Part shown: piece by piece, positions 1-21,605 of the stretch | Position numbering within the stretch: the first letter of the stretch is position 1 | Layout: each line of letters starts with the position of its first letter | Assembly (NCBI GenBank): GCA_007833815.1 | Contig: CP033464.1 | Span: 4,520,001-4,584,000 of the forward strand | Direction of reading: 5' to 3' | DNA from: Brevibacillus laterosporus | GTDB lineage: Bacteria; Bacillota; Bacilli; Brevibacillales; Brevibacillaceae | Length of the DNA stretch: 64,000 bases | Notes under the pieces: model-generated | What the model was told of the DNA's origin: nothing | Database searches by the model: none | Seen by the model: the letters and a program-made list of their open reading frames with translations, nothing else | Position numbers and translations under genes: made by a program

Positions 1-1
1 T

Positions 2-310: not shown

Positions 311-322
311 GGGGGATGTTGA

Positions 323-964: not shown

Positions 965-991
965 GGAGGCACCTATCTGTCTATTGATATC

Positions 992-4828: not shown

Positions 4829-4907
4829 AAATCTTTAGTAATCTAACCGATATAGATACTAACAAATATTTACACAAAGTTTATTTACAATGTAAAGGAG
4901 CTATCAT

Positions 4908-5759: not shown

Positions 5760-5766
5760 TATCAGT

Positions 5767-5790
5767 CCTTCACTTGAGGGGCTTTTTTAT
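5767..5790 (+). terminator. Weak terminator after lipoprotein gene
   Basis: CCTTC and GAGGG pair around a 4-base loop and are followed by GCTTTTTTAT. The stem is short, so partial read-through into the PAAR-like gene is likely. Confidence 0.45.
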
Positions 5791-5795
5791 TAGGA

Positions 5796-6242
5796 GTGAT
5801 TATTATTCCCCTATTAGCATTTGAAGGTAGTAAAACAAGAGATGTTACAGCTAACGACATTCGATATCAAATATGGAATCCTTGTATTACACAAATTTGT
5901 AACGATGCGGGCTGTGTATGTGTCGGTGGTTATGAAAATCATACTGGTTCATCCACTGTCAAAGGTGTCGTTCAAGCTTCAAGCAATAAAGTATATGTAA
6001 ATGGTCAAAAGGTTGCTAAACTAAATGATTCTGTTAAAGAAACCGAGCAGACACACATTCCAAGCAATGCAGTTAATGTAAGCAATCATGAGGGTGGCAC
6101 AGGCAAAATTATCGTTGGCAATAGTAATCGTGTTTATGTTGAAGGTGTACTAGCAGCTATCGTTGGAAGTCAAGTAAAAACCCACACCTCTCCTTCTACC
6201 GTTATAGAAACTGGTTGCAAAAATGTATATGTCGGCTCCTAA
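5796..6242 (+). CDS. PAAR-like tail-spike tip protein
   Basis: About 148 residues with two Gly/Val-rich hairpin units (SSNKVYVNGQKVAKLND and NSNRVYVEGVLAAIVGS) and a final cKNVYVGS strand, the pattern of PAAR-like domains that cap spikes of contractile injection machines. Four cysteines cluster at NPCITQICNDAGCVC and may bind metal. The GTG at 5796 overlaps the AGGAG ribosome site at 5792-5796 and cannot use it. An ATT at 5802 or 5805 is correctly spaced, so the true start is probably non-canonical. It precedes the baseplate/fibre gene. Confidence 0.6.
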   Translation: MIIIPLLAFEGSKTRDVTANDIRYQIWNPCITQICNDAGCVCVGGYENHTGSSTVKGVVQASSNKVYVNGQKVAKLNDSVKETEQTHIPSNAVNVSNHEGGTGKIIVGNSNRVYVEGVLAAIVGSQVKTHTSPSTVIETGCKNVYVGS

Positions 6243-6259
6243 AGAAAGGAGGTAATTAA

Positions 6260-7462: not shown

Positions 7463-7486
7463 AATAATTTTAATGGAGGTTTACAT

Positions 7487-7960
7487 ATGGCAGAACCATT
7501 AATTAGCTGGTATTCACAGGACAATACATTAGATTTAGCTGCTAATGGCGGTTGGAAAATAGGAACTATTAATGCAGGAGATACTTCTCCACAATTAGGG
7601 GTACTACTTTGGAATAACAGGGGTGGCACATCGGCTGTATCAGATATGAACGACTGCACTCTCACTACAGTAGATACTCAGGGTGGCTCTAATAGTCCTG
7701 TTGTTACAGGTAAATGGGTTTCCACTAAAGTGGTATCTATGTCTGAAGTTAATTTCACTGCAATTGGTGGCAATCAATCAACTAAAAAGATCAAGGCTAG
7801 TGGTCAAGAAGACGGTACTATTGCTGGAGCTGTAAATGATGCAGTTAAAGAAAACTCAAAGGCAAACTTTGCTGAATTTATTCTCCAAGCCACTCCCCCA
7901 CTAAATGCCCCTGCTGGCACTTTTAATTTTAACGTGCGAGTTTCTTATACGTTCACCTAA
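7487..7960 (+). CDS. Phage tail-associated beta-sandwich protein
   Basis: ATG with an ideal GGAGG ribosome site. The 157 residues are Gly/Thr/Ser-rich with alternating hydrophobic residues, ending NFNVRVSYTFT, consistent with an Ig- or jelly-roll-like domain. It has no signal peptide. It lies between the fibre protein and further adhesin-like genes, and a terminator follows at 7998. The high Gly/Thr content suggests abundant expression as a structural or decoration protein, which is inference. Confidence 0.5.
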   Translation: MAEPLISWYSQDNTLDLAANGGWKIGTINAGDTSPQLGVLLWNNRGGTSAVSDMNDCTLTTVDTQGGSNSPVVTGKWVSTKVVSMSEVNFTAIGGNQSTKKIKASGQEDGTIAGAVNDAVKENSKANFAEFILQATPPLNAPAGTFNFNVRVSYTFT

Positions 7961-7997
7961 TAAAAAAGATATTTCATTATATATAAAATAACCTATG

Positions 7998-8030
7998 GGC
8001 TGTTTCTCAATTTGAGTGACAGCCTTTTTA
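7998..8030 (+). terminator. Intra-operon terminator
   Basis: GGCTGT (7998-8003) pairs with ACAGCC, followed by TTTTTAT. It separates the 7487-7960 gene from the next three genes. A TTG inside this hairpin is not a credible start for the next gene. Confidence 0.7.
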
Positions 8031-8047
8031 TATCGGAGGTCAATACA

Positions 8048-8647
8048 ATGTTATCTCACATTATCCCCTACTCTCCTGTGTCACAAAGGGAATTCATCTG
8101 GTTGGCAGAATACACAGATGGCACTCATCTATCAGAATTTGATTTTAATACAAAACAAGAAAATGATTTTTACTCTATAGATAAAAAGGCTGCTGTTCGT
8201 TTTGGATTAATCGGTCATGGACATAAGCTTTACTATGAAACATTTGGTGGTCATTTTAAATTAGGAAATGGACAAATTGATCTGGTCTATAAGTCTGGAG
8301 AAAAAGAATATCCACTAACAGGACACAATGAGTTTTATCAGGATTTGATTACTTTTAAGAGAGCTGAGGCAGAAATAGACTTGTTAAATAGCTCTGGAGA
8401 ATTAAGCCCTGTTATCACAGAATATGTGTTTGGGTATAAGCATAAATTACAATTCGAAGATATTTCTTTTCATATAAAAGTTTTAGTTGGATTATCTGAA
8501 AAATCCCCTGCCCTCACTCTTCGATTAGTTTCAAATAGAGATGTGGAAGGTAGTGTTGGAATTAAGCTTAATGGGAAAATCGTAAGTGAATCGGTTTCAA
8601 ACCTCACCAAAGAAGCTAGTCAAGAATTTAACTGGGAGATGAATTAA
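8048..8647 (+). CDS. Phage protein of unknown function
   Basis: The ATG at 8048 follows CGGAGG, which fixes the start; an upstream TTG lies inside a terminator hairpin. The 199 residues are mostly beta, with motifs such as WLAEYTDGTHLSEFD and AAVRFGLIGHGHKLYYETFGG. The first resembles openings of small phage accessory tail proteins. The stop codon abuts the ATG of the next gene, so the two are likely translationally coupled. I do not recognise a family. Confidence 0.55.
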   Translation: MLSHIIPYSPVSQREFIWLAEYTDGTHLSEFDFNTKQENDFYSIDKKAAVRFGLIGHGHKLYYETFGGHFKLGNGQIDLVYKSGEKEYPLTGHNEFYQDLITFKRAEAEIDLLNSSGELSPVITEYVFGYKHKLQFEDISFHIKVLVGLSEKSPALTLRLVSNRDVEGSVGIKLNGKIVSESVSNLTKEASQEFNWEMN

Positions 8648-9310
8648 ATGCCAAAGATTGGAGAACAACTTTTAAAACCTGAAGATGGTTGGAAAAGAAT
8701 TGATGATACTAATCCGAATATCCATTATCTACCTGATTCTGGCTACTGGAACTCTAATAACATCGAAGAACATTATAATTCAACATGTAGGTATTCTTCT
8801 AATAATGGTGTATCTTATGCTTTTATACTTAGAGGAGATAGATTCCGTATAATTTCTGGAATCGGCAACGACTACTCTGAAGAGTGTCTAGTAAAGATAA
8901 ATGGAAAATTTATAGACTCTTTTTCTATGTATAGTTCTGTAACCCAGTTTCAGACTCTTGTATATGAAAAAAATAATTTAAGATCGGGAGTTTATGTAGT
9001 TGAAATTTTCAACAACACATCTTCAAAAATTGGTCTAGATGCAATTGATGTAGGCTTTGATGGAGATATTATACTTCCTAATTCTACTGTTAAAGCATCT
9101 GCAAATTTTAAAGAAAAAGATTTATTGATGCCAAGAAATACTAAATATGATTACGAATTTAAAATTTTACCATCTCAGTCAATTCAAATATCTCATAAAA
9201 GAAAGTTAGTTCCCTCTGATAAAAGTCAAGTAAAAACTGGGATTGTTTACAAATCAACAATTGACTTGGAAAATTGGGAAAATATTAATGCAATCAATTT
9301 TAGCTATTGA
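8648..9310 (+). CDS. Phage tail protein with carbohydrate-binding-like jelly roll
   Basis: Starts directly after the previous stop, with its ribosome site GGGAG inside the upstream gene. Residues about 15-140 (WKRIDDTNPNIHYLPDSGYW, then RGDRFRIISG and LRSGVYVVEIFNNTSSKIGL) resemble the jelly-roll modules found in glycan-binding tail proteins. The C-terminus is another small beta segment. Together with the RCC1 and DNRLRE genes it looks like part of an adhesion set. The match is by pattern only. Confidence 0.5.
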   Translation: MPKIGEQLLKPEDGWKRIDDTNPNIHYLPDSGYWNSNNIEEHYNSTCRYSSNNGVSYAFILRGDRFRIISGIGNDYSEECLVKINGKFIDSFSMYSSVTQFQTLVYEKNNLRSGVYVVEIFNNTSSKIGLDAIDVGFDGDIILPNSTVKASANFKEKDLLMPRNTKYDYEFKILPSQSIQISHKRKLVPSDKSQVKTGIVYKSTIDLENWENINAINFSY

Positions 9311-9321
9311 GGTGAAACAAT

Positions 9322-11478
9322 ATGAGTCTTCATTCTGGTAGTTTTACAATAAAAAATGATAATACACTATGGTGCTATGGTGCATTTTTAGGTTATGGAT
9401 ATGATTCTCCTATTAAGATAATGAATGATGTTAAATATTTTAATTCTAGTAACTATGGAATCTCAGTCGCTATTAAAACCGATGACTCTCTTTGGGTACA
9501 AGGATATAATAACTATGGACAATTAGGAATACCCAATGAAACTTTTATTAGTCACCATAGGAAGATAATGGACGGTGTTAAACAAGCTTCAGCTCTTGAA
9601 TACCATACAATGGTCATAAAGAAAGACAATACACTTTGGGGGTTTGGTAGAAATGCACATGGAGAATTAGGGCATTATGCAAACTTAAAGACAGATAATG
9701 CAAATGCAACTCCCACAAAGATCATGGACGATGTACGATATGTATCTTGTGGTCTTGGTGGATACACAATGGTTATTAAAATGGATAATTCATTATGGAG
9801 TTTTGGTAATAATAGAAATGGACAATTAGGGCATTCTACAAATATTGGTTCATATACTCCTAATCCAATTCCTCAAAAAATAATGGATGATGTTAAATAT
9901 GTAACTTGTTCAGACAATTTCACTATGGTTATCAAAATGGACAATACTCTTTGGAGTTTCGGTAATAATCAACGTGGGCAATTAGGGCATTCGAGTAATA
10001 TTGACACTTCAAATCCAAATCCCACCCCAAGGCTTATTCTGAATAACGTAAAGTATGTGTCTTGTGGTGGGAAATTTACTATGGCAATTACAATCGACAA
10101 TTCTCTTTACGGATGGGGTCTTAATTATAGAGGGCAATTAGGGTTTTCAACAAATTTTGGTGGAGTACGTGCCAATCCATACCCCACAGAGGTCATGAAA
10201 GATGTAAGATATGTATCGTGTGGCTCAGAGCATACAAATGTTATCAAGAAAGATGGGATTCTTTGGGGTTTTGGGAGCAACAGTTCAGGGCAGCTAGGTA
10301 ACCCCCGAAATGATAAAGGCATACCTTACCCTGTTAAACTTTTTGATGACGCTCTATTTTTGGCAGAACAACCTCCTCTTCAAGAAAAAATACTACTTAT
10401 AGATCAGGATAATATCTTAGCCTTTAACGGAGATAAATGGGTTGTTGCTAGTAAAACACCTTATTCTGAACAAGATTTTATCCAGTATGGGGTTGAATAT
10501 TTAAATGTTTATATGATAGAAGCTTTAAAGTCCTTTTCAAATATTGATATAGCTTGTTGGGTACAAGATTCTACTAATGATGAAGATTTAAATATCGTTT
10601 TATGTGGAGATTATACAGCACCATATCGTTATAAAATCGAAATGCTTGAGCCATATGTTTTATTAAAAGAATGGACTCCTATTTTAACGGAGGAAACTCA
10701 TAGTACGGTATCACTAACTTCTGATATGTTTCAACAAGCAACTAATCCATATACAATAAAAATAACTGTTGAACAACCAGATGGGACTGTAATAACTGAG
10801 GAAGGTAATATTTTACTATATGATACTGAACCAAAGTTGTTAGTAAAATTAGAAGGAAAGAATTTAAAAATAGAAATTGGAGACGACGAGCAAGATAAAA
10901 TTAAGTTTAAAGTTAATTTAAATGGTAAGCAAATTTATCCTTCTGATGGATTTACAGATTTTCTCCCAACTCCTCACGTTCAAACAATCTATCTTAATAC
11001 AAAAGATATTAATATCGATTCCTCAAATACTATTGAGACAATTGCCTTTGATTCATACGGGAAAGAAAGTAAAGATATCACAAGTTTTATTGGTGATTAT
11101 ATCGGATTGATATTTTCTGATGAAAAAGGAAAATACTACTCAACTGATGCTGGTGAAGTACTTCAATATCTTAGCTTTGGCTCTATCATTGCAGGACAAA
11201 CAACCCTTCCTGTTAAAGTTAACTTAACAAACAAAGAAGGAATGGATATTAAGAATCTAAAAGTTGAGTTGCATGCTCCTACATATTATCAAACTCAAAT
11301 TCAAATATCCAAAACGGAAAATCCTTTTATTCCTGAACAAGTGCTAACCTTCACAGATATTCAAAAGAGAGATGAGAACGTATCTTTTTATGTGCGGATT
11401 GTAACTAATGCAGATGATGTAGCTCACTCTGGTGAATTTGATATTTATGCAGAAGCTGAACCTGCCTCTGAAAGTTAA
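9322..11478 (+). CDS. RCC1-repeat (beta-propeller) phage tail protein
   Basis: Residues 1-350 hold about seven RCC1-type repeats with the core DNTLWxxGxNxxGQLG followed by KIMDDVKYVSCG; clear examples are at DNSLWSFGNNRNGQLG and DNTLWSFGNNQRGQLG. RCC1 repeats fold as a seven-bladed propeller. Residues 350-718 are a set of beta-sandwich domains with Ig-like strands (PYTIKITVEQPDGTVITEEG). No signal peptide is present, so it acts as part of the virion. The ATG at 9322 follows GAGGTG. A receptor or glycan-binding role is inferred from its place among adhesin genes. Confidence 0.75.
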   Translation: MSLHSGSFTIKNDNTLWCYGAFLGYGYDSPIKIMNDVKYFNSSNYGISVAIKTDDSLWVQGYNNYGQLGIPNETFISHHRKIMDGVKQASALEYHTMVIKKDNTLWGFGRNAHGELGHYANLKTDNANATPTKIMDDVRYVSCGLGGYTMVIKMDNSLWSFGNNRNGQLGHSTNIGSYTPNPIPQKIMDDVKYVTCSDNFTMVIKMDNTLWSFGNNQRGQLGHSSNIDTSNPNPTPRLILNNVKYVSCGGKFTMAITIDNSLYGWGLNYRGQLGFSTNFGGVRANPYPTEVMKDVRYVSCGSEHTNVIKKDGILWGFGSNSSGQLGNPRNDKGIPYPVKLFDDALFLAEQPPLQEKILLIDQDNILAFNGDKWVVASKTPYSEQDFIQYGVEYLNVYMIEALKSFSNIDIACWVQDSTNDEDLNIVLCGDYTAPYRYKIEMLEPYVLLKEWTPILTEETHSTVSLTSDMFQQATNPYTIKITVEQPDGTVITEEGNILLYDTEPKLLVKLEGKNLKIEIGDDEQDKIKFKVNLNGKQIYPSDGFTDFLPTPHVQTIYLNTKDINIDSSNTIETIAFDSYGKESKDITSFIGDYIGLIFSDEKGKYYSTDAGEVLQYLSFGSIIAGQTTLPVKVNLTNKEGMDIKNLKVELHAPTYYQTQIQISKTENPFIPEQVLTFTDIQKRDENVSFYVRIVTNADDVAHSGEFDIYAEAEPASES

Positions 11479-11509
11479 TTCTCAATACAATGAGAAGGTG
11501 TGATTATAT

Positions 11510-12964
11510 TTGAACAATACTATGAAGGGGAAGTTTTCTGTATGGGGGTTTAGGCAGCCTACCATTCCTGCTTCTATAAGTATCCCCTTTTTAAATCATT
11601 TTCCAGCCTCTATTACAATTACTCCAAAAAACAAAATGACAGGTCGTTTCGAAACTATTGAGCGACCATTAGAGATTCACGAATTAACTTCAATAAAAGA
11701 TAGTACAATCCGTGAGGGTATCCCTACTCTTAGCTATGGATCAGATCCAAGCATGCTAATTGGTAAGACTAATTCAGAACGTTTTCGTGGATTGGTTGAG
11801 TTTGATTTATCTAAGTTACCAAAAGAAAAAGAGTTAAAACGAGCTAAGTTAAAGCTATATTGTGGATATTTAGAATCACCCATTAATCTTGCTTTATTTG
11901 AAATTCTCGATGATTGGCGAGAACATGATGTAACATGGAGTAATCAACCACCTCAAGGCAGAAAGATAACTGAGAAGTACATTACTCATGCTGATGGATA
12001 TATTGAGATTGATGTCTTTACTTTAGTTAAAGAATGGTATGAAGGTAAAACACCTAACCATGGTGTTTTTTTATTTGCAGAAGAACAAAATGAGCAATCA
12101 ACTATTCAGCTACAGACTAGGGAATCGTTCACTCCCCCTATATTAGAAGTAGGGTTTTATAAGCTAATTTCCAGTTTAGCTTTGGGCAAATTACCAGCAA
12201 CTTTATCTATACGTGCTAACGGTGAGGACAGCCTAGCTGCTTCCATTAATGTAAACAGTAAATACAAAACAAAAGACTTAGCTGCACAACTATCTATTTT
12301 AAGGAAATCAGTAGATACTGAATTAAGTTGCTCGATGGATGTAGTAGGCAAACGAAACAGCTCAATGTCAGCTTTCATGTCTATTGAGAAAAAACCTAAA
12401 GAAACTGTAATTCCTGCTCAACTTACTGTAAGACGGTTAGAAGACTCATCCTTACTAAGCTCTATGGCAATTGAGAAAAAGCCACGTATGGGGCAACTAG
12501 ATACTTCATTGACTGTACGTGTAGCAAAGTATCAACAGTTATTTTCCAATCTGACTATTGAGAAAAAAGAACGCTTCAAACAGCTACGTGCCAATATTAA
12601 AGTTGCTTATGTAAAGAATTTGCCATCTACCTTCAGTATTGAGAAAAAGGAAAGAAATCGTGATCTTACAAGTTCATTAACTGTTCGACAACGAGAAAAT
12701 AATAAACTCAGTAGCTCAATTGTTATTTCATCAAGGAAGTTTTTCTCTAGTCAAATGTTTGTTCGACATGCTAGAGATTTCCCTTGTAGCATTCAGGTCA
12801 ACTCAGGATTCTTAAATGCAGAAATTAAGGTTAGAGGATATCGGGATGTAAAAATTCCAGCTAGGATTACAGTAAGAGTAAGAAGGATTAGTGACATACA
12901 TGCGAGGATTACTGTGAGAAATATAAAATATGATGCAGATGCTGGCTATGTATTTATCTTATAA
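11510..12964 (+). CDS. DNRLRE-domain phage protein with short beta-repeat array
   Basis: TTG start 9 bases after AAGGTG. Residues about 61-218 match the DNRLRE (CBM96-like) domain: STIREGIPTL, RGLVEFDLSKLP, WREHDVTWSNQPP and TIQLQTRES are its usual landmarks. Residues 219-484 are tandem short repeats of about 17 residues alternating LxSSLTVRxRE and SSIxIEKKxR types, predicting a regular beta stack or solenoid. It is the last gene of the tail operon, followed by three hairpins. Likely a surface-binding fibre; function inferred. Confidence 0.65.
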   Translation: MNNTMKGKFSVWGFRQPTIPASISIPFLNHFPASITITPKNKMTGRFETIERPLEIHELTSIKDSTIREGIPTLSYGSDPSMLIGKTNSERFRGLVEFDLSKLPKEKELKRAKLKLYCGYLESPINLALFEILDDWREHDVTWSNQPPQGRKITEKYITHADGYIEIDVFTLVKEWYEGKTPNHGVFLFAEEQNEQSTIQLQTRESFTPPILEVGFYKLISSLALGKLPATLSIRANGEDSLAASINVNSKYKTKDLAAQLSILRKSVDTELSCSMDVVGKRNSSMSAFMSIEKKPKETVIPAQLTVRRLEDSSLLSSMAIEKKPRMGQLDTSLTVRVAKYQQLFSNLTIEKKERFKQLRANIKVAYVKNLPSTFSIEKKERNRDLTSSLTVRQRENNKLSSSIVISSRKFFSSQMFVRHARDFPCSIQVNSGFLNAEIKVRGYRDVKIPARITVRVRRISDIHARITVRNIKYDADAGYVFIL

Positions 12965-12988
12965 GAGGTAGTATAAATGACAAAAAAG

Positions 12989-13029
12989 AAGTAGATCACC
13001 CTTGAGCATCGCAGCTTAGTGATCTACTT
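12989..13029 (+). repeat. Perfect 11-bp inverted repeat after tail operon
   Basis: AAGTAGATCAC at 12989-12999 is exactly complementary to GTGATCTACTT at 13019-13029. No T-run follows, so it is not a classic terminator. A smaller CCCTTTGAAGGG palindrome follows near 13040. Confidence 0.6.
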
Positions 13030-13078
13030 CATCCGACAAAAATGAGCCACCCCTTTGAAGGGACAGTCTTTTGTACAA

Positions 13079-13111
13079 ACCGTAGGTGTTACCAGCACCT
13101 ACGGTCTTTTT
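13079..13111 (+). terminator. Strong terminator of the tail operon
   Basis: ACCGTAGGTG (13079-13088) pairs perfectly with CACCTACGGT (13096-13105), followed by a T-run. It closes the rightward tail transcription unit before the opposite-strand cargo genes. Confidence 0.85.
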
Positions 13112-13224
13112 GAACCCATGTCAGTATATTAACTATAGCATAACACATATTGGTAAAAATGCAATCATAACATTTTGTTTATTTGTAGTGGTTTAAGTTT
13201 AAGCAAGTAAGCTTTGATTAAAGC

Positions 13225-13857
13225 TCAATCTAGGTCAATCATATCGTCAATGAGATAATGATTCTTGTTTTTGACAAGATTGAATTGTACCTTTGTTGTA
13301 CGTTTTAATATCTCTTTAAAGTTTAAGGAGTCATATCCAATGCCTTCGAATAAAACAATTGTATTTGTCGCATTCTTCTTTTGAATAGTTACTTTTAGAC
13401 CTTCCACAATACCTTGCATACTTGATGAGAATCCTTCTGTCTCTATGCATTCATAAGTACCGTTGTCTCTCTTTTTAAAGTAAAAGGCAAAGATTTCTTC
13501 TGCTTTAGAGGAGGTATAGTATTTTTTTAATGTTGAAATGATAACTTCTTTCGAGTTGCCATCAATAAACCGTTTTGCCCTTGAGAGAGATATAAAATCC
13601 CCCGTCCATGTTTGTAATTTATCAAACCATAATAATTTAGGTATATCACCTTTACTGGTTAGTACTTTATCAGTCAGTACATCAGGAGCAGAGTTTTCTA
13701 AAAGAGATGCTATGAAAGTTATATTTTCTTTTGTTAGTTTGTCATTTTTTTTGGCGGCAACACTGGCTTTTGCTGCTTCAGCTTTGGTTGGATTCCAAGA
13801 TGAAATTGAAGTGATAGCTAGGATGGAAATCAGCAAGAAAAGATAAACTTTTTTCAT
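13225..13857 (-). CDS. Secreted protein of unknown function (prophage cargo)
   Basis: The start is the ATG at 13857, preceded by GGAG; the frame is open further upstream but without a ribosome site. Residues 1-29 are a signal peptide (MKKVYLFLLISILAITSISS) with a probable AEA cleavage site. The mature 180 residues are Lys-rich and mixed alpha/beta, with LLWFDKLQTWTGDF and ECIETEGFSSSMQGIVEGLK. No known motif is seen. It lies on the opposite strand to the tail genes, next to another secreted protein, as lysogenic-conversion genes often do. Confidence 0.6.
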   Translation of the reverse strand: MKKVYLFLLISILAITSISSWNPTKAEAAKASVAAKKNDKLTKENITFIASLLENSAPDVLTDKVLTSKGDIPKLLWFDKLQTWTGDFISLSRAKRFIDGNSKEVIISTLKKYYTSSKAEEIFAFYFKKRDNGTYECIETEGFSSSMQGIVEGLKVTIQKKNATNTIVLFEGIGYDSLNFKEILKRTTKVQFNLVKNKNHYLIDDMIDLD

Positions 13858-13902
13858 CACCAAACTCTCCATTCTGTGTTCATTTTTTATTTGAAAAGCA
13901 CA

Positions 13903-13928
13903 ATCCCCCCTCATTATAAAGGGGGGAT
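13903..13928 (-). terminator. C/G hairpin between two secreted-protein genes
   Basis: ATCCCCCC and GGGGGGAT form an 8-bp perfect stem with a 10-base loop. It lies between the 14014-14811 gene and the 13225-13857 gene on the minus strand. Only a short T-rich stretch follows, so it may attenuate rather than stop transcription. Confidence 0.5.
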
Positions 13929-14013
13929 AAGTATTTGTCATTTTATTCCAAATGTATACCTAATTCTGTACGTTTCTCATCTGACATTGTTTGAAGTTTT
14001 CTTTTTTCTAATG

Positions 14014-14811
14014 CTACGGAGTATATTCTCCCTTTTTCTCTTTTAATACAAAGATACCGTCTGCCTCACCATATCTAGTCTCTAGTGGAAAGTAGTAATC
14101 AATTTCATCAACAGTATCCAAAGACTTATCTGGAGTGCCATTAGAAATGTCAGTTATTTTATATACCCAGTCATACATTGTACCCCATGTGTTGTATTTT
14201 ATAGGCACAAATTCTATCCACGCACTATAGCCCGGACTAACAGTTTCTTTAATAGAGTCCTCAAATGAAGCTGATTCTACGGCAGATGATGATATAGATG
14301 CTTTTAAAATTTTGAAAGCATCAGAATTAAGTGTGACATTTTTAGTTAGTTGTGTGCTTCCTGAAACCTTAAAACTACGTTCTACAGGTGTTGATTTAGT
14401 GTTGTACCAAACGCTTGAAGCACGCTTTCGCTCTTTCTCATAAGTAACTTCTTTCCCACCTCTTTTTTTGTACTCATATTCATGCCATTGGCGAATTATA
14501 ATCCAAAGAGGATTTACTTCATCTTCCTTATTAAGATGATTTATACTCTCAAAGGACTTTTTCTTATCTAGATCGTTCTGTTCGGTGGTATCGGAAAGTG
14601 CTTTTACATCTTCAATTGATAATTTCTTTAAACCATTTGCTGTGTTACGATACACAGAAACAATAGTTTCATCGTCTTCAATACTATTAGTGAAATACTC
14701 ATCATACGATTCGGAAGACTGTGCGTTGACTTTAGTGGCAAAACCTCCTCCAGTAAATAACGCACTTCCCACTAAAAGCGCACTAAGACCTGACAAGAAT
14801 GTTTTTTTCAT
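14014..14811 (-). CDS. Secreted protein, possible beta-pore-like fold
   Basis: 265 residues with a clear signal peptide (MKKTFLSGLSALLVGSALFT, cleavage near VNA). The mature part is acidic and helical to about residue 130. Then comes a long Ser/Thr-rich amphipathic region (ERSFKVSGSTQLTKNVTL, then ILKASISSSAVESASFED) of alternating polarity, followed by YSAWIEFVPIKYNTWGTMYD. Such regions recall the insertion strands of aerolysin-type toxins, but the resemblance is weak and no family is claimed. It is a prophage cargo gene on the strand opposite to the tail genes. Confidence 0.55.
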   Translation of the reverse strand: MKKTFLSGLSALLVGSALFTGGGFATKVNAQSSESYDEYFTNSIEDDETIVSVYRNTANGLKKLSIEDVKALSDTTEQNDLDKKKSFESINHLNKEDEVNPLWIIIRQWHEYEYKKRGGKEVTYEKERKRASSVWYNTKSTPVERSFKVSGSTQLTKNVTLNSDAFKILKASISSSAVESASFEDSIKETVSPGYSAWIEFVPIKYNTWGTMYDWVYKITDISNGTPDKSLDTVDEIDYYFPLETRYGEADGIFVLKEKKGEYTP

Positions 14812-14903
14812 TAGTTAATCAATCCTCTCATGTAATTTTTTGTAAAAATATATTGACTGAAATTTGTGTGTAAGTTAGGGTGTTAATAAAAAGGAGGGTG
14901 GAT

Positions 14904-15128
14904 ATGAACAGAAGAGCCGCAGGTGTTTATTTTTGTGCCATTGGAGCATTTTTAATAGCGGTACAGTTCCTAACATCAGCTATATATAGCCTAAGTGATA
15001 AGTGGGGAGAATTTTCATTTGAAAAAATAATGGTGTTTGTAGGAAGCATCCCCCTCTACTTAGGTTACTTCTTTATAGCTTTTGGACTCCTTTATATTTT
15101 GTGGAACGAATTGAACAAAAGAGACTGA
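14904..15128 (+). CDS. Small two-helix membrane protein
   Basis: The ATG at 14904 follows AAGGAGGG at 14891, so the longer frame from 14880 is discarded. The 74 residues hold two hydrophobic segments (about residues 6-28 and 42-66) joined by a short polar loop, ending NELNKRD. It is divergent from the secreted-protein gene at 14811. A holin-like or immunity role is possible but nothing in the sequence decides it. Confidence 0.6.
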   Translation: MNRRAAGVYFCAIGAFLIAVQFLTSAIYSLSDKWGEFSFEKIMVFVGSIPLYLGYFFIAFGLLYILWNELNKRD

Positions 15129-15144
15129 TATACTAATTTTACAA

Positions 15145-15321
15145 TCAAATGTATTGTATTTTTTGAAGTGCAACAATGTACTCATCTAGCTGTTGACTTA
15201 GTTGCAATACTATTGGACTTGAAAATGAGCCTTCTTTGAAATACAACATCTCTAATTCTTTGCGGAGGAGTTCAATATTTTTTTGTAAATCATTTCCTAG
15301 TTGAGAATTTTCTGTTTTCAT
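15145..15321 (-). CDS. Spo0E-like aspartyl-phosphate phosphatase
   Basis: A 58-residue protein: two helices, the second carrying the family signature SQQLDEYIV (S42, D46), preceded by DLQKNIELLRKELEML and a short turn. Spo0E proteins dephosphorylate Spo0A~P and delay sporulation; family members are commonly 50-85 residues. The ribosome site is weak. The gene is directly downstream (minus strand) of the peptide/regulator pair, but a terminator lies between. In a prophage this would let the phage affect the sporulation decision, which is inference. Confidence 0.65.
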   Translation of the reverse strand: MKTENSQLGNDLQKNIELLRKELEMLYFKEGSFSSPIVLQLSQQLDEYIVALQKIQYI

Positions 15322-15347
15322 ATTCTGTAAGTGAGTGGTAAAATGAA

Positions 15348-15420
15348 CTTGAGAAACATTTTTTGTTTCTCAAGGTGGGGGCGTTCCGCTGGTCTTCAAA
15401 CTAACGGGAACGCTCCTTTT
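15348..15420 (+). ncRNA. Candidate small structured RNA
   Basis: Two consecutive hairpins: CTTGAGAAAC (15348-15357) pairs perfectly with GTTTCTCAAG (15365-15374), then GCGTTCC (15381-15387) pairs with GGAACGC (15407-15413), followed by TCCTTTTAG. A possible -10 TAAAAT lies at 15339-15344, just upstream. It is divergent from the Spo0E-like gene and contains no open reading frame. It could instead be an operator plus a terminator. Confidence 0.4.
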
Positions 15421-15562
15421 AGTTGATAAGTCATCTAGATTGAAGTTAACACCTCCTTTATTCCTCCTGAGTATTATTTTCCATTATGTTCTATTTTTTA
15501 CTTAAAAAGCTATTTTCTTGAAACGTTTTACAAATTACGACAAAATATCATTGAAAAAACAT

Positions 15563-15590
15563 AAAAAAAGAACGCTATTTAAAAGCGTTC
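15563..15590 (-). terminator. Terminator of the regulator-peptide operon
   Basis: On the minus strand GAACGC, an 9-base loop, GCGTTC, then TTTTTTT. It sits 17 bases after the stop of the peptide gene. Confidence 0.85.
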
Positions 15591-15606
15591 GAAAGTAACA
15601 AAAATA

Positions 15607-15744
15607 TCAATAGCCCGGATCAGCATTATTGGCACGCATACTGAACTCGTTCAGATTATTTACTTCTTCTGTTTCAACCGAAACAAAACCAATATTTGTA
15701 ATTAAACCTAAAGTTAATAACATTAGAACAATTTTTTTCTTCAT
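15607..15744 (-). CDS. Phr-like signalling pro-peptide
   Basis: A 45-residue gene with an ideal AGGAGG 6 bases before ATG. The N-terminus (MKKKIVLMLLTLGLITNIGF) is a Sec signal, followed by an acidic linker and a C-terminus SMRANNADPGY. This is the layout of Phr, NprX and related quorum peptides, where the last 5-10 residues are released, re-imported and bound by a TPR receptor. The gene lies 13 bases after the XRE-TPR gene on the same strand, and its ribosome site overlaps that gene's stop region. Which C-terminal residues form the active peptide cannot be told from sequence. Confidence 0.75.
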   Translation of the reverse strand: MKKKIVLMLLTLGLITNIGFVSVETEEVNNLNEFSMRANNADPGY

Positions 15745-15757
15745 TGGAATCCTCCTT

Positions 15758-17041
15758 TTACATACTCTTTTTTCCATTTATCTCATTATATGCTTCTTCT
15801 AACTGTTTTACATAGTGCAAATCAATTGGCTTTGAATTTTTTGAGAAATATTTGAAAATTTCCTGCAAACATTTTGCTATTTCGATGTGATCATTTATTT
15901 TCCCGTATGTTGTTATGCTGTTAATGTAGCTTTCCATACCTTCTTCTAGAAGTTCCTTGCTTATTTGGAAATCGGCTTTTTGACGGTAGTACCTTGCAAG
16001 CGAGGTTAATTTATAAGGTGTGTATGCATTGTCTGGAAGTAATTCCCTTTCTCTGCTTATTATTTCATTTATTGACTGTACAATGTTGAAATGAACATAT
16101 ATCCCAAGCAGTTCATTTACTACGTGTACTTTATTATCCTTACTTAATTCATCCATATATTTTTTTAACATAGGAATCGCTATCTCATATTCTTTCTTCT
16201 TAGCTTTAGTTATAGCTCGTGTAATCATGGATGATTCCAGAACAAACTTATGTTCAAATTTTTCAAAAATATCAAGCAAGTTTTCAACAGAGTCATAATT
16301 ATGTAAGTCAGAATATGAATTAATCATAGCTAAATATGCTCTAGCTTTCAGCTCAGTATCATTTTTTTCTAATGCAATCCCTGCTTCGCATAGTTCAATA
16401 CATGTTTCGTATTTTTTTATAGCATAAGCCTGAAGTCCCATTCTAAAGTATAAAATTATCCGCTCCTCTTCAGTTAAAAAATCTGCATAATGAACAACCT
16501 CTTCACCAATTTTAAATGATTCCTCCATATTTTTAAAATCTTGTCTTTCAATCAAATATTTCTGTAAGGAGGATTTAGCAATGAAGTGTGGTATCCCATG
16601 CACTCTTGAATATGAAATTATAGTATTAAAAAGTGCTAACTTCATTTCATTGTTCGTACTACTATTGGCAAGCCTATATATGTGCTCTAATAGTATATGT
16701 GTTTCTTCTTTGGAGTTTTCAAGGAATTTCATTGCCACTTTTGTCATCAAAGAAGCATTTGAGGTTTCAATGCATAACGATAAAAAATCGTCAAATACTT
16801 CGATCCGATGCTCTACTTCGATATACCATTCAATTATGCCTTCATAGGGAATTGCCAAAACATCCGCAATTGGCTTTAAAGTTCTTAACTCTGGACGTTT
16901 CGTATCTCCAGATTCAATCTTCGATAAAACCCCTTTACTAATCCCTGTCATTCTGGACACTTCTGACAGACTGACACCTAACTCTTCTCTTTTTTCCTTT
17001 ATAAGTTCCCCCAATGTTGTGAAAGTCAGATTTACACTCAT
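15758..17041 (-). CDS. RRNPP-type XRE-TPR peptide-responsive regulator
   Basis: The start at 17041 follows GGAAGGGG; an upstream ATG at 17074 has no ribosome site. 427 residues: an N-terminal helix-turn-helix (residues about 8-62, with LGVSLSEVSRMTGISKGVLS and KIESGD) and a TPR array from residue 75 to the end (repeated A..Y......C....I.... helices). This is the architecture of PlcR, NprR and AimR-like receptors. The adjacent peptide gene makes a matched pair. Its promoter region carries a tandem 11-bp repeat that could be its operator. In a prophage it may control lysis-lysogeny, cargo genes or host sporulation. Confidence 0.8.
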   Translation of the reverse strand: MSVNLTFTTLGELIKEKREELGVSLSEVSRMTGISKGVLSKIESGDTKRPELRTLKPIADVLAIPYEGIIEWYIEVEHRIEVFDDFLSLCIETSNASLMTKVAMKFLENSKEETHILLEHIYRLANSSTNNEMKLALFNTIISYSRVHGIPHFIAKSSLQKYLIERQDFKNMEESFKIGEEVVHYADFLTEEERIILYFRMGLQAYAIKKYETCIELCEAGIALEKNDTELKARAYLAMINSYSDLHNYDSVENLLDIFEKFEHKFVLESSMITRAITKAKKKEYEIAIPMLKKYMDELSKDNKVHVVNELLGIYVHFNIVQSINEIISRERELLPDNAYTPYKLTSLARYYRQKADFQISKELLEEGMESYINSITTYGKINDHIEIAKCLQEIFKYFSKNSKPIDLHYVKQLEEAYNEINGKKSM

Positions 17042-17089
17042 GTTAATCCCCTTCCATAATTTATAAGTAATCACATTGATTCCTTTATC

Positions 17090-17111
17090 AATCTTAACTT
17101 AATTCTAACTT
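17090..17111. promoter_or_regulatory. Tandem 11-bp repeat upstream of the regulator
   Basis: AATCTTAACTT and AATTCTAACTT are adjacent, 9 of 11 positions identical, in the AT-rich divergent region between the regulator (minus) and the lysis genes (plus). Spacing of one helical turn suits binding by a dimeric XRE protein. Confidence 0.4.
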
Positions 17112-17298
17112 TATTGTATTTTTTTGTAAATAACAATAAAAAATATTGGATTAAATAATTTTTTTATTTTTTTAAACAGGAAAGGCGGTCTTTTAAATTT
17201 TTACTTCAAAGCCTTGTAAATCTATCCCTATTCGTTGGAAAGGAGGTTAGAAATATATACATGTTTCATATAACTCTACGTTGAAAGGAACTGCTATC

Positions 17299-17685
17299 AT
17301 GTCCAGTAATCAAGTTTTAGAAGTGAAAATTGAGAATCTACACAGAGAACTCAATTCTTTCAAAGAGGAGACAAAAGAAGATATTCGAGATATTAATTTG
17401 AGTATTAAACAAAGCGAGAAGCTTTTTAATGATGCTATTGTGACTATGACCGAAAACATTACCAAGCTAACTACTATTGCTGACCAGCAACGTGAAGAGA
17501 TGCGTCAACAACGTGAGGAAATCAGGCTAATTCGAGAATCTAAGTCTTCTGAGATAAAAGTTTCTCAAGGTAATGATGAAAAGAAATGGTATCAAGAAAC
17601 CACTAATAAGTTGATTATGCTGATTGGCTTAATCCTCTGTGTATTACTCGGTTTGAATGCATCTGCTGTGAATTTTTTGCAATAA
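17299..17685 (+). CDS. XhlA-like lysis accessory protein
   Basis: The ATG at 17299 lies 8 bases after AAAGGAA; the TTG at 17281 precedes that site and is rejected. 128 residues: a long coiled coil (residues 5-95, with REEMRQQREEIRLIRES) then one C-terminal membrane segment (LIMLIGLILCVLLGLNASAV). This matches the hemolysin XhlA family, small membrane proteins that work with holin and amidase in phage lysis. The amidase gene follows 16 bases later. Confidence 0.75.
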   Translation: MSSNQVLEVKIENLHRELNSFKEETKEDIRDINLSIKQSEKLFNDAIVTMTENITKLTTIADQQREEMRQQREEIRLIRESKSSEIKVSQGNDEKKWYQETTNKLIMLIGLILCVLLGLNASAVNFLQ

Positions 17686-17701
17686 CTGGAGGCGATTATA
17701 T

Positions 17702-18478
17702 TTGAAAATGATTGAAAAACTACTTACCCCTAACGACTACTCCAGACCTCGTTTAAAAGTTAAAACGATCAAAGGAATTGTCATACATTGGGTAGCTGCA
17801 CCCATGCAAAAGGCAATTAATACATGGGGATTTTTTGAGAATCGTAAATTTGGAAAAACAAACTATGGATCAGCTCACTACATTATAGATTTAAATGGTG
17901 ATATTTTAAGATGCGTTCCTGAAAATGAAATGGCTTATCACGTAGGTTCAACTACATACACTACTTCTGCTTTGAAACGTTTAAGTACATATCCTAACAA
18001 CTGCACGATTGGCATTGAATGTAATCATATAGATATGAGTGGGAAGATGACTTCTGAAACTTATCAATCTCTTTTAGATTTCTGTGTACAGCTATTAAAG
18101 CGATATAACCTAACTGAAAATGATCTTTGGCTACATAAGGAAGTTGTTGGCTGGAAGGATTGTCACCGATGGTTTGTAAATAATCCTGATGAGTGGGCTT
18201 TGTTTAAAGAGAAAGTTGGACAAGAATTACACGGTGACACTTCTAAAAATACAGAAAATATTACAAAAGAAAAGGTGCTATATATCATGTCAAAATACTT
18301 TAAAGACATTCCTGAAAAGATGAAATGGGTTTCTGATCCTGCTGATCGTTTGTATGAGAAAGGCATTGTACTAGGAGATGAGAAAGGTAATTTACATCCA
18401 GATCAACCTGCTACTCGTGCAGAAGTAATCACTTTTATTGATCGGGCAGTTGAATATGTCCTGAAAGAAGTTAAATAA
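17702..18478 (+). CDS. Phage endolysin: amidase_2 with C-terminal SLH domain
   Basis: TTG start 9 bases after GGAGG. Residues 15-165 are an N-acetylmuramoyl-L-alanine amidase (T7 lysozyme/PGRP fold): zinc ligands H29 (GIVIHWVAAP), H145 (WLHKEVVGW) and C154 (KDCHRWF). Residues about 195-255 (FKDIPEKMKWVSDPADRLYE, then NLHPDQPATRAEVITFIDRA) form one S-layer homology domain, which binds secondary cell-wall polymer. The enzyme cuts host peptidoglycan at the end of the phage cycle. The SLH anchor suits an S-layer host such as Brevibacillus. Confidence 0.9.
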   Translation: MKMIEKLLTPNDYSRPRLKVKTIKGIVIHWVAAPMQKAINTWGFFENRKFGKTNYGSAHYIIDLNGDILRCVPENEMAYHVGSTTYTTSALKRLSTYPNNCTIGIECNHIDMSGKMTSETYQSLLDFCVQLLKRYNLTENDLWLHKEVVGWKDCHRWFVNNPDEWALFKEKVGQELHGDTSKNTENITKEKVLYIMSKYFKDIPEKMKWVSDPADRLYEKGIVLGDEKGNLHPDQPATRAEVITFIDRAVEYVLKEVK

Positions 18479-18509
18479 GAAGCAATTATTTAAAAAGGAG
18501 TATGATGAA

Positions 18510-18824
18510 ATGAGTATTTTATTAGGTCAAATCGTATTAGATGTAGCTCATCTTCTACTGTTAGCAGTAGGAACATGGGCTATTTTTTATTTAGTTACGT
18601 TTCTCAAAGGTAAAATCAAAAAAGAGCATGCACTACGTGCTGTGCAATATGTTGAACAAGCTTTTGTTCATTTGAAAGGTTCAGAGAAATACAATGAAGC
18701 TGTTACGTACTTTGTCGCTAGTATGGCTCGGAATAAAATTAAAGTAACTGATGAAGAAGTTAAAGGATTGATTGAATCTACCCTTTGCGAATGGAAAGAT
18801 GAATTGAACAAACAAATGAAGTAG
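18510..18824 (+). CDS. Phage holin, LLH family
   Basis: ATG after AAAAGGAG. 104 residues: one N-terminal membrane segment (HLLLLAVGTWAIFYLVTFL), then a charged helical region with AVQYVEQAFVHLKG and a C-terminal tail, matching the LLH holin family. It completes the XhlA-amidase-holin lysis cassette. A strong terminator follows. Confidence 0.8.
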   Translation: MSILLGQIVLDVAHLLLLAVGTWAIFYLVTFLKGKIKKEHALRAVQYVEQAFVHLKGSEKYNEAVTYFVASMARNKIKVTDEEVKGLIESTLCEWKDELNKQMK

Positions 18825-18833
18825 AGTAATTTA

Positions 18834-18868
18834 CCCCTTCTGGCTATATGCTGGAAGGGGATTTTTTT
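18834..18868 (+). terminator. Terminator of lysis cassette
   Basis: CCCCTTC pairs with GAAGGGG, followed by ATTTTTTT. It ends the rightward prophage transcription. Confidence 0.9.
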
Positions 18869-18890
18869 GTTTTTATAGGAATCTCCTATC

Positions 18891-19148
18891 CTATAAGTTG
18901 TACTTCATTATTACCTCAATGACTTCCTCGTAAATCTTTTTCCGATTCTCTTCTCTACGACAATTGATGCAGTATGGGTCTTTACAGAATTTCTTTAGAC
19001 GCTGAAATGTATTGTGCATTTCTTTTCCGCATTTGCATGAGTATACTAATTCACTTTTTTGATTCACATAGGAGCTTAACAGCCTACATTGATAACTCTC
19101 AAACCAACTTTTAACTTCGTCTTGTGTATATTGACCTTTAGCCACCAT
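18891..19148 (-). CDS. Small treble-clef zinc-finger-like protein
   Basis: 85 residues with AGAGGTG before the ATG. After a helical N-terminus with ESYQCRLLSSYVNQKSELV, the pattern CKCG, then CKDPYCINCR gives paired cysteine knuckles. The same module occurs at the N-terminus of, or repeated in, phage-associated homing-type nucleases. No nuclease domain is attached, so it is a stand-alone module or a remnant. It is the last gene before the conserved host genes and may mark the prophage edge. Confidence 0.55.
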   Translation of the reverse strand: MVAKGQYTQDEVKSWFESYQCRLLSSYVNQKSELVYSCKCGKEMHNTFQRLKKFCKDPYCINCRREENRKKIYEEVIEVIMKYNL

Positions 19149-20031: not shown

Positions 20032-20835
20032 TTATGATGCTGAACTTTGAAGGTATTGCCTGTATTCCAAAGGTGTCATACAGTTTAGTCTTTTCTGGTA
20101 TCGATGGTTATTGTAGTAATTTATGTATTCCATAATTGCTACTTCCAGCTCTTTGTATGTATTGAATTTATTGAGATCATACATTTCGGATTTTATCATT
20201 CCCCAAAACGATTCCATCGGGCCATTGTCTATGCACCTAGATACCCTCGACATGCTTTGTATCATTCCTGCATCGTCCAGTTTTTTCTTGAATTTTTTGC
20301 TCGTATATTGGAACCCTCGGTCACTATGAAAGATAGGTTTAGCATTAGGATATGACTGATGTGCAATATCAAAAGTTCTAAAAACAAGTTCATTGTTGTT
20401 GGAATGCCCGATCACAAAAGAAACAATACTTTTATCTGACAAATCCAGGATTGCACTCAAATAAGCCTTGCTTTGAAGGCCATACTTCATTTCCGTCACG
20501 TCAGTGAGCCATTTTGTACCGAATCCATCGGATTCGAAATCTCTGTTCAAGACATTTTCCGTCGTAATTTCAGGCGTTGAAGGAATGTAATTCTTTTTCT
20601 TTCTGCGGCATACCGATTTTATTTGTAAGATACACATGAGTCTGTATATCCGTTTATGGTTAACAGTAAGATTGTGTTGTCGGTTTAGTTTGATTGTCAT
20701 CTGACGATATCCAAGGATTCCATCTCTTTCTTCATAGGCATCCTTAATCATGAGAAGCAACTCTTTGTTGAATTTCTCGTTATTACTTTCTTTCCTGTTT
20801 AGCCATTTATAATACGAAGAACGTTGAATCCCCAT
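20032..20835 (-). CDS. IS3-family transposase OrfB (DDE integrase core)
   Basis: 267 residues as written from ATG. It has an N-terminal HTH_21-like part (GYRQMTIKLNRQHNLTVNHK) and the rve integrase core with D (WLTDVTEMKYG), D (IFHSDRGFQYTS) and E (NGPMESFWGMIKSEMY). The frame is open upstream to the slippery site in orfA, so the active enzyme is probably an OrfAB fusion made by -1 frameshifting. It moves the IS by copy-out-paste-in transposition. Confidence 0.95.
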   Translation of the reverse strand: MGIQRSSYYKWLNRKESNNEKFNKELLLMIKDAYEERDGILGYRQMTIKLNRQHNLTVNHKRIYRLMCILQIKSVCRRKKKNYIPSTPEITTENVLNRDFESDGFGTKWLTDVTEMKYGLQSKAYLSAILDLSDKSIVSFVIGHSNNNELVFRTFDIAHQSYPNAKPIFHSDRGFQYTSKKFKKKLDDAGMIQSMSRVSRCIDNGPMESFWGMIKSEMYDLNKFNTYKELEVAIMEYINYYNNHRYQKRLNCMTPLEYRQYLQSSAS

Positions 20836-20921
20836 GTTTTCACAGAGTTGACTAATGGGATATAATTTACTGTCATGAAGATCGCGTATGGCAAAATATA
20901 CAGGTTCATATCGGACTTGGC

Positions 20922-21605
20922 TTAGAATCGCCCCCTTTGGATTTCGTCCAGCTTTTTTAGTAAGTCAATCTCCATTTGCTTTCTTCTGTTCTCAGCTTGA
21001 AGCAGCTTATTATGTGCCCTCAGTTTCTCCACTTCGGACATCTCATCTTCAGATTTTCGCTTTCCACGTTTATCCTGAAGTGCATCTACACCAGATTTAA
21101 TGTATTTATTTGTCCAAGAATAAACTTGCTGATAGGATACCTGAAATTTCTGTGCGGTTTGGGCATAATTGTGTTGATGTTCTATACAGAATCTTACGAT
21201 TTCAATTCTTTCCTTGTAAGTAGTTGCTCGTCCTTTTGTCATGATTGGCGTTCCTCCTGAGCCGGAAGCTTTCGGCTTCTCATGACCATTATACTTCAGG
21301 ATCCAGTTACGCAGTTGGCGGGTTGATTTGATGCCATATCTTTTACATATATCCATGTGAGAACCACGACTAGCCAGATAATCCTCGACAGCTGTTTTCT
21401 TTAATTCTGTGGAATAGGAGGAGTTCTTGGATGTATTGAGCAATCCGTTTGGACCTAATGATTGATAAGTTTGAAGCCATTGTTTAATAGATGGAAAGGA
21501 AACATCTAGAAGATTTGCTAAATGATTAAGCGAATCTTCCCCACGAAGATATTTTTCAATAGCTGCAATCTTTTCTGACCCAGATATTTTTGCTTTATGG
21601 GACAT
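20922..21605 (-). CDS. IS3-family OrfA (HTH DNA-binding, leucine zipper)
   Basis: 227 residues with two helix-turn-helix units (LANLLDVSFPSIKQWLQTYQ and FQVSYQQVYSWTNKYIKSG) and a C-terminal leucine zipper (KLRAHNKLLQAENRRKQMEI). An A AAA AAG slippery heptamer at 20958-20952 lies in the LLKK codons near the 3' end; a -1 shift there leads into OrfB without a stop. OrfA alone binds the IS ends and regulates transposition in this family. Confidence 0.92.
   Translation of the reverse strand: MSHKAKISGSEKIAAIEKYLRGEDSLNHLANLLDVSFPSIKQWLQTYQSLGPNGLLNTSKNSSYSTELKKTAVEDYLASRGSHMDICKRYGIKSTRQLRNWILKYNGHEKPKASGSGGTPIMTKGRATTYKERIEIVRFCIEHQHNYAQTAQKFQVSYQQVYSWTNKYIKSGVDALQDKRGKRKSEDEMSEVEKLRAHNKLLQAENRRKQMEIDLLKKLDEIQRGRF

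Follow-up and report, generated by a model that had tools for sequence, protein, structure and literature searches.

A prophage-borne receptor-pheromone pair of Brevibacillus laterosporus lies in a candidate module with Spo0E-like and secreted cargo genes

Introduction

What does a peptide signalling system control when it is carried by a prophage? The question arises in a window of 64,000 nucleotides from Brevibacillus laterosporus (GenBank assembly GCA_007833815.1, contig CP033464.1, positions 4,520,001 to 4,584,000 of the forward strand; the window designates this whole stretch, in whose coordinates features are given below), where a receptor gene and a propeptide gene of RRNPP type stand inside a prophage. 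The original prediction, made from the sequence alone, recognized this pair and proposed that it could set lysis, cargo expression or host sporulation. It missed the large paralogous family to which the pair belongs, as well as the downstream element, the leader, and the genes for a Spo0E-like protein, a secreted cargo and a small membrane protein. The surprise is the module surrounding the pair. The explanation that we consider probable is that of a prophage "moron", a self-contained pheromone module gating Spo0E and probably a toxin/immunity-like cargo. The gene content suggests that the signal controls sporulation timing and weapon-like cargo, not the phage's own life cycle. In this way, an RRNPP cluster delineated in silico becomes a concrete testable circuit: its pheromones share a motif, its candidate operator is locus-specific, and its leader and outputs are named. 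If true, a single bacterium maintains about a dozen peptide signals in parallel, many of which are coupled to a brake on sporulation and to a secreted protein that can be exchanged, and a prophage can carry a host-directed social module instead of a phage-lifestyle switch.

The receptor-propeptide pair

The receptor gene lies on the minus strand (17041-15758) and encodes 427 residues from an ATG start to a TAA stop. Exactly 13 bases (15745-15757) separate its stop from the propeptide gene (15744-15607, minus strand), which starts with ATG behind a good ribosome site, AAAAGGAGGATTCCA. The 45-residue propeptide has a basic and hydrophobic N-terminus and ends in SMRANNADPGY. An intrinsic terminator, consisting of a hairpin followed by seven T, is found 3' of it (15590-15570, minus strand). 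The open reading frame (ORF) and terminator scans therefore reproduce exactly the arrangement initially described, from the 427-residue helix-turn-helix (HTH) receptor and the 13-base gap to the ANNADPGY end and the terminator. The receptor is preceded by a promoter pattern (17139-17102, minus strand) that combines the conserved TTATTGTTATTTACA-NAANNATACA (17139-17115), a -35 sequence TTTACA from 17130, a 17-nt spacer and a -10 sequence TAGAAT ending at 17102. Judged from this layout, the receptor and propeptide genes are a single operon with its own conserved promoter and terminator.

The location between tail and lysis genes also holds, with tail genes on the left, including a minor tail protein (992-4828), and an amidase (17702-18478) and a holin (18510-18824) on the right. 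As all of these are on the plus strand, the pair is transcribed against the late genes.

The receptor carries an XRE helix-turn-helix at about residues 10-70 (PF01381, HTH_3, E-value 2.5e-12), and its residues 1-423 match phrog_32768 (E-value 3.8e-138). Tetratricopeptide repeats (TPR) are matched only weakly in Pfam, always under the cut-off. The AlphaFold (AF2) model combines the HTH with an all-helical superhelix (mean pLDDT 82.7, pTM 0.58), and Foldseek places the PlcR-PapR7-DNA complex (3u3w) as third match, with an E-value of 4.8e-4 and a TM-score of only 0.26. Among the matches listed, the 50 best of each search, families outside which are not counted as excluded, NprR, Rap and AimR are present together with unrelated TPR proteins. 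Sequence searches of the PDB return HTH-only proteins and a few TPR proteins, with no PlcR and no NprR, and no AimR chain at E-values of 0.1 and 1. The sizes published for RRNPP systems (a propeptide of 10-100 residues beside a receptor of 250-500 residues, according to the text covered of PMC10075063) include both proteins, with 45 and 427 residues. A hydropathy rule, the only criterion applied, predicts Sec-dependent secretion of the propeptide from its basic start and its hydrophobic core. On the grounds of the Pfam HTH, the structure model and the pair architecture, the window pair is a real prophage-borne RRNPP-type pair, as originally predicted.

A shared pheromone end

Candidate propeptides of relatives were chosen by start, ribosome site and hydropathy, not by motif. 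Such a candidate stands behind 72 of the 81 receptor ends with at least 250 bases behind them; of the nine others, five are ends of duplicates or fragments and four are receptors (L023, L096, L106, L108). After removal of one phage contig end and one non-propeptide ORF, the 69 distinct candidates become 67. A loose C-terminal motif centred on D-P-G is carried by 65 of these, versus 3 of 651 signal-like short control ORFs from the same DNA, and the conserved C-terminus on which the original prediction had staked itself is therefore present in homologues. The strict form D-P-G-[YHFWL] is found in 44/67 propeptides and in one of the 651 control ORFs, this single match resembling a further propeptide. 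By position (n=67), G occupies -2 in 59, P occupies -3 in 60 and D occupies -4 in 54, and 53 propeptides close with H, Y or F.

The last eight residues of the window propeptide, ANNADPGY, also end the propeptides of the two closest receptors (83-84% identical). This conserved end suggests a mature pheromone of about 7-8 residues, (A)NNADPGY. Since the last 11 residues of the propeptide of phage Sundance are those of one chromosomal copy in the same B. laterosporus genome, cross-talk between phage and host signals is conceivable.

A receptor family of chromosomes, plasmids and phages

When the own genome (5.76 Mb, 4 contigs) is searched in six frames with the receptor, 29 matches are obtained. 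Near-full-length copies number 13, 42-100% identical to the query, and 12 of them have no internal stop; broken copies and two distant relatives complete the set. The family is present in all six genus genomes examined, the own genome among them. A scan of named genomes adds 33 receptor loci in several Brevibacillus species and in Paenibacillus (elgii, tyrfis, ehimensis, tianmuensis, oleatilyticus and two others), and a viral collection adds seven. Phages Sundance and SecTim467 carry the family, and Jenst carries it partly, with a truncated receptor. Among plasmids, the window receptor matches only two Paenibacillus records (P. larvae and P. thiaminolyticus). By this distribution, the receptor family is not phage-specific and occurs in chromosomes, plasmids and phages.

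A quick tree of 65 rows joins the window copy to that at C4:4.386 Mb of the own genome and to one of genome G003. The seven phage rows are scattered, at least five changes being needed, and phage and own labels cluster no more than shuffled labels do. Three neighbours of the C4:4.386 Mb copy were scanned and gave one DnaD-like phage match and no structural phage gene, and the idea that this copy sits in a second prophage was not retained.

Two pairs of the own genome, at C4:869 kb and 2093 kb, and the matching loci of other genus genomes have no Spo0E and retain the same pheromone and stable neighbours, namely a HAD phosphatase and, in relatives, a response regulator; these pairs are probably core, non-mobile members. 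At C4:343 kb, a radical SAM/SPASM protein, of a kind able to mature ribosomal peptides, is encoded upstream of the receptor (L012:3665-4957, minus strand).

Control regions around the pair

Two sequence patterns, both derived from receptor loci, delimit the candidate control regions, and their informative part is consequently their absence elsewhere in the genome. With at most two mismatches, the genome contains TTATTGTTATTTACA-NAANNATACA at 12 places, each of them just upstream of a receptor gene or receptor fragment, and the reversed pattern matches nowhere. The second pattern is a conserved 26-bp element, TTTTGTCGTAATTTGTAAAACGTTTC (15545-15520, minus strand), located behind the propeptide terminator and considered, from its genome-wide pattern, as a candidate regulator site of a downstream promoter, P2. 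In 5.76 Mb, and again with at most two mismatches, the pattern TTTTGTCGNNATTTNNNNAACGTTTC is matched seven times versus once for the reversed control, and all seven matches lie between a receptor or receptor fragment and a Spo0E-like gene. The element presumably contains a Spo0A-box-like sequence.

Behind the element, comparison of the loci and a covariance model point to a -10-like sequence, TGGAAAAT (TGGTAAAAT in most paralogues), and a presumed transcribed leader with two conserved hairpins (15482-15334, minus strand). The model, built from 22 leaders and applied to 150 of 2,753 first-look candidates, finds 15 confident genome matches, 11 of which are model members, and all 15 are located at receptor or Spo0E modules. 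Two weak matches (E-values 0.013 and 0.061) were set aside, the former standing beside a Spo0E-like gene. One leader (C1:42047-42186) stands directly ahead of a cargo gene (from C1:42271) with no Spo0E between them. Compensatory changes are few, at least one sequence showing them in 5 of 18 pairs, so the evidence for an RNA structure is modest. Readthrough of a conserved in-frame TGA between a possible 27-residue leader ORF (...GTPPP) and Spo0E was considered and rejected: the ORF has no consistent start codon, and its conservation is therefore taken as RNA or DNA structure.

The Spo0E-like gene

The leader is followed by a gene for a Spo0E-like aspartyl-phosphate phosphatase of 58 residues (15321-15145, minus strand), with an ATG start and no evident Shine-Dalgarno sequence. 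Its product matches PF09388 with an E-value of 2.8e-12 and 46.9 bits, for a cut-off of 23. The own genome has 24 Spo0E-like genes, and reading across the receptor and Spo0E searches places 12 of them within about 0.7 kb downstream of a family receptor or receptor fragment. Receptors with a Spo0E behind them occur in Brevibacillus as well as in the P. elgii group. What comes next differs: a secreted protein in the B. laterosporus group, and an AbrB-like gene in place of cargo in the P. elgii group, where the MazE/AbrB domain is above the cut-off in one of three proteins scanned and just below it in the two others.

Secreted cargo and its membrane partner

The secreted cargo of the window is a protein of 265 residues with a signal-like N-terminus (14811-14014, minus strand), for which the Pfam and NCBIfam searches return no family. 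Next to it, on the plus strand, an ORF at 14880-15128 encodes a small membrane protein of 82 residues from a GTG start (or 74 from the ATG at 14904) with two hydrophobic segments, which neighbour statistics designate as a candidate immunity protein. These two genes thus present the arrangement used as a criterion for bacteriocin- or toxin-immunity pairs, a secreted protein with an adjacent small membrane protein.

Neighbourhoods were tabulated for 54 receptor ends from 55 stretches (the own genome, G001, G003-G005 and seven phage loci; the 33 named-genome loci are outside this table). A signal-bearing ORF of at least 140 residues lies within 1.4 kb of the receptor stop at 25 of the 27 ends with Spo0E versus 13 of the 27 without; as an imperfect control, 51 of 208 other ORFs of these loci are signal-like by a similar rule. 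Secreted proteins were grouped by BLAST at an E-value of 1e-5, and in the resulting exchange table, as opposed to the 72/81 count, the motif helped to choose the pheromone. Three loci whose receptors go with ANNADPGY each have a secreted protein unrelated to those of the other two. In the reverse direction, one cargo family is found with AYVDNPQG, VYTGDPGH and QNHDDPGH, another with ANNADPGY and QYAYDPGY, another with ANNADPGY and PYVVDPGY, and another with AYLDDPGY and QNHYDPGY.

Of 35 cargo genes, 18 have a small membrane protein gene at a distance of 400 bases or less, versus 8 of 146 other ORFs of the same loci (Fisher p 1.1e-9, a value overstated because cargo families recur). The 35 genes are those left after removing duplicates and four types judged non-cargo (transposase-like, a kinase-like family and two others), and two of the 18 positives (L065, L128) are doubtful. 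In five cargo families with differing pheromones, the membrane partners are related within the family, with 50/57 identical residues in family 3, 50/54 in family 7, 76/78 in family 8, 59/88 for two members of family 5 (the third, L115, being weakly related), and 19/47 or more in family 0. By these alignments, the membrane protein travels with its secreted partner between modules.

The full window cargo is found nowhere else in the six genus genomes, and its search in phage records gave no match. At a second place in the own genome, only the last 75 cargo residues are found, beside an intact copy of the 82-residue membrane gene. This copy differs from that of the window by five synonymous and five amino-acid-changing codons (ratio of nonsynonymous to synonymous rates, dN/dS, about 0.18). 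Keeping the membrane gene beside a truncated cargo is the behaviour expected of an immunity gene.

Proposed mechanism and alternatives

By analogy with PlcR, NprR and AloR, the propeptide would be exported, trimmed to its C-terminal peptide and re-imported, and the peptide would bind the TPR superhelix of the receptor and alter its DNA binding. The main target would be P2, just downstream, which the 26-bp element and the structured leader locate by sequence and to which the receptor would bind. P2 would drive the Spo0E-like gene, hence lower Spo0A~P and delayed sporulation, and probably also the secreted cargo behind Spo0E, against which the opposite-strand membrane protein would protect producers. 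The peptide would either activate P2 or, as in Alo13, shut it off. Through the module, both the timing of sporulation and the release of a toxin- or bacteriocin-like protein would depend on how dense the carriers of one pheromone type are.

An arbitrium-like lysis/lysogeny switch has to be weighed against this scheme. The pheromone would then report prophage density and the receptor would control the nearby amidase, holin and tail genes, which accords with the position of the pair, flanked by tail and lysis genes and divergent from the gene at 17281, and with a link between phage quorum sensing and Spo0E stated in the text covered of PMC10075063. However, the family also populates chromosomes and plasmids, its seven phage copies are scattered in the quick tree, and all of the 7 downstream-element and 12 receptor-promoter matches are at receptor loci, none at other promoters. 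The pheromone end also differs from the known arbitrium ends. We hold such a switch to be improbable, and the special lysis/lysogeny link is not retained in view of the many chromosomal and plasmid copies and the scattered phage copies. Of the outputs initially offered, lysis is thus disfavoured, whereas sporulation and cargo gain from the Spo0E-like and secreted-protein genes behind the pair and from the 12 of 24 Spo0E genes near receptors. The receptor and pheromone could also control Spo0E and nothing more, the secreted and membrane proteins being mere neighbours. Receptors precede Spo0E in Brevibacillus and also in the P. elgii group, where an AbrB-like gene replaces the cargo, Alo13 offers a precedent, and the opposite-strand gene separates Spo0E from cargo in the window; yet the signal-bearing ORF near 25/27 Spo0E-bearing ends, the joint shift of cargo and membrane protein among modules, and the leader directly ahead of a cargo gene make sporulation hijacking by itself rather unlikely. 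Least credible is selfish genomic-island debris, i.e., a duplicated mobile segment whose receptor, Spo0E and cargo are decaying without a working circuit. Several receptors are indeed broken, some Spo0E copies have no start codon, and the corresponding region of phages Jenst, SecTim467 and Sundance has been called a "putative transposable region" (PMC4909266, text covered), but 12 open near-full-length receptors in one genome, strongly conserved peptide ends, conserved locus-specific promoter elements and an intact window copy speak against debris to the point of making it very improbable.

Several observations also weigh against the favoured explanation, a pheromone module gating Spo0E and cargo. 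The structural TPR matches of the receptor are generic, eukaryotic TPR proteins scoring level with NprR, and the secretion calls rest on a crude rule, a basic-plus-hydrophobic N-terminus, not on SignalP. Peptide-specific co-evolution with the receptor is not supported by a Mantel test, in which receptor divergence correlates with the C-terminus (r 0.618) inseparably from the signal region (0.621; n=54). The second leader hairpin (15374-15348) is also listed as terminator-like by the terminator scan, and the leader may therefore limit readthrough instead of permitting it. No Spo0E pattern occurs within 1.3 kb of 27 of the 54 tabulated receptor ends, and several receptors are stably accompanied by other genes (HAD phosphatase, response regulator), so that Spo0E and cargo are not universal outputs. 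In six paralogues (L014, L017, L103, L091, L013, L063), no start codon (ATG, GTG or TTG) stands near the beginning of the Spo0E frame, which a conserved in-frame TGA closes upstream; some of these copies may be dead, or they may use an unusual translation start. Among 20 secreted proteins scanned, three have a family above the cut-off (two M23 peptidases and one Ntox44) and 17 have none, including the two of the window. Small membrane neighbours are absent from 17 of the 35 cargo genes. Finally, the opposite-strand membrane gene sits between Spo0E and cargo in the window, and their common transcript is hypothetical.

A wider version of the favoured explanation can be proposed only tentatively, and we incline against it. 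The modules would be cassettes that join a D-P-G-Y/H pheromone and its receptor to one shared promoter for the Spo0E brake and a swappable toxin with its immunity, reassorting across chromosome, plasmid and prophage. Carriers would delay their own sporulation and attack non-carriers, a quorum-gated kin discrimination in which prophages would also act on their hosts' behalf.

Comparison with known systems

In the text covered of the RRNPP_detector study, a plasmid of B. laterosporus LMG 15441 is stated to carry one AloR-AloP system and one "cluster 8" system, the latter cluster being distributed over Paenibacillaceae chromosomes, plasmids and phages (Bernard et al. 2023, PMC10075063). Plasmid pBRLA33 of this strain carries one AloR-type receptor and one receptor of the window family (43% identical, propeptide ending in SDYDPGY). 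By elimination on pBRLA33, the window family is most likely the uncharacterised cluster 8, an identity arrived at indirectly since a second LMG 15441 plasmid also carries an AloR-type gene. The D-P-G motif, the leader and the cargo are not mentioned in the description of cluster 8 in the text covered, which nevertheless terms phage quorum sensing next to spo0E a "sporulation-hijacking signature" (PMC10075063). In the open-licence papers, as far as their text was covered, neither the shared pheromone motif nor the cargo exchange was found reported; Spo0E beside phage RRNPP pairs is already published.

The window pair resembles AloR-AloP in its XRE-TPR receptor followed by a secreted propeptide, in its many paralogues per genome and in the downstream spo0E-like gene of Alo13. 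For Alo13 of P. polymyxa, the receptor activates and the peptide represses this gene, according to the text covered (Voichek et al. 2020, PMC7425212). The two systems differ in receptor family and in pheromone end, a propeptide of P. polymyxa ATCC 842 ending in GYIGGA. Membership of AloR was rejected, as the window receptor gives blastp E-values of 1.3 (ATCC 842) and 1.4e-6 over 97 residues (YT9) versus 1.6e-78 and 4.3e-69 for the AloR-type protein of pBRLA33 against the same receptors; the AloR identity of these P. polymyxa proteins was assigned by organism, copy number and propeptide instead of by a published accession. With an AloR-type profile, the window receptor gives a distant match (hhalign 96%, 16% identity). 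An AloR-type query matches 26 Paenibacillus plasmid records, many of them from P. polymyxa.

AloR-type receptors are repeated in the own genome too (L069-L074), with five near-full-length genes, 54-83% identical to that of pBRLA33, and partial copies, so two multi-copy RRNPP-like families coexist there. AloR-type genes are found behind a window-type receptor on pBRLA33 and at C4:5.17 Mb, and in SecTim467 a single block (gp71-gp67, L068) encodes a family receptor and Spo0E, then a receptor of AloR type and a secreted protein.

The HTH-Spo0E region of phages Jenst, SecTim467 and Sundance contains the same receptor family with Spo0E, the receptor being truncated in Jenst. It was published as a "putative transposable region", with an HHpred match of a SecTim467 protein to PlcR/PapR; it is thus described as a transposon, and roles for a propeptide and cargo are not mentioned in the text covered (PMC4909266). 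PlcR-PapR and NprR-NprX of the Bacillus cereus group share the HTH and TPR receptor, and the window model matches 3u3w, 4gpk and 5dbk. Their peptide ends, we assume, differ from the window pheromone. AimR-AimP also associates a phage-borne TPR receptor with a peptide, and AimR chains are among the structure matches listed, but the window system has a D-P-G-Y end, non-phage copies and a Pfam-matched HTH. Arbitrium pheromones are short and end in GA. The arbitrium reading was rejected on the ADPGY end and the copies outside phages, and the initial description of the signal as non-arbitrium stands.

Neighbouring features

A second secreted-type protein of 215 residues (238 from an upstream ATG) is encoded behind the cargo (13872-13225, minus strand), and its membership of the module is less certain; proteins that resemble it by eye occur behind other receptors. 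Beside the module, on the plus strand (12981-13103), lies a BsrG-like type I toxin-antitoxin RNA with a strong terminator (RF01412, 39.2 bits, below the gathering score of 55). This sub-threshold match lies outside the module, for which Rfam returns nothing but two chance-level snoRNA matches. Megablast of window positions 1-19100 against phages gives one 72-base match only; 72 bases around the BsrG-like RNA match phage SecTim467 near the module of that phage. Just right of the prophage stands an IS3-type transposase gene pair (20032-21605, minus strand) and, beside it, a gene that we take to encode a peptidyl-prolyl isomerase-like lipoprotein, transposase and lipoprotein both being named by eye.

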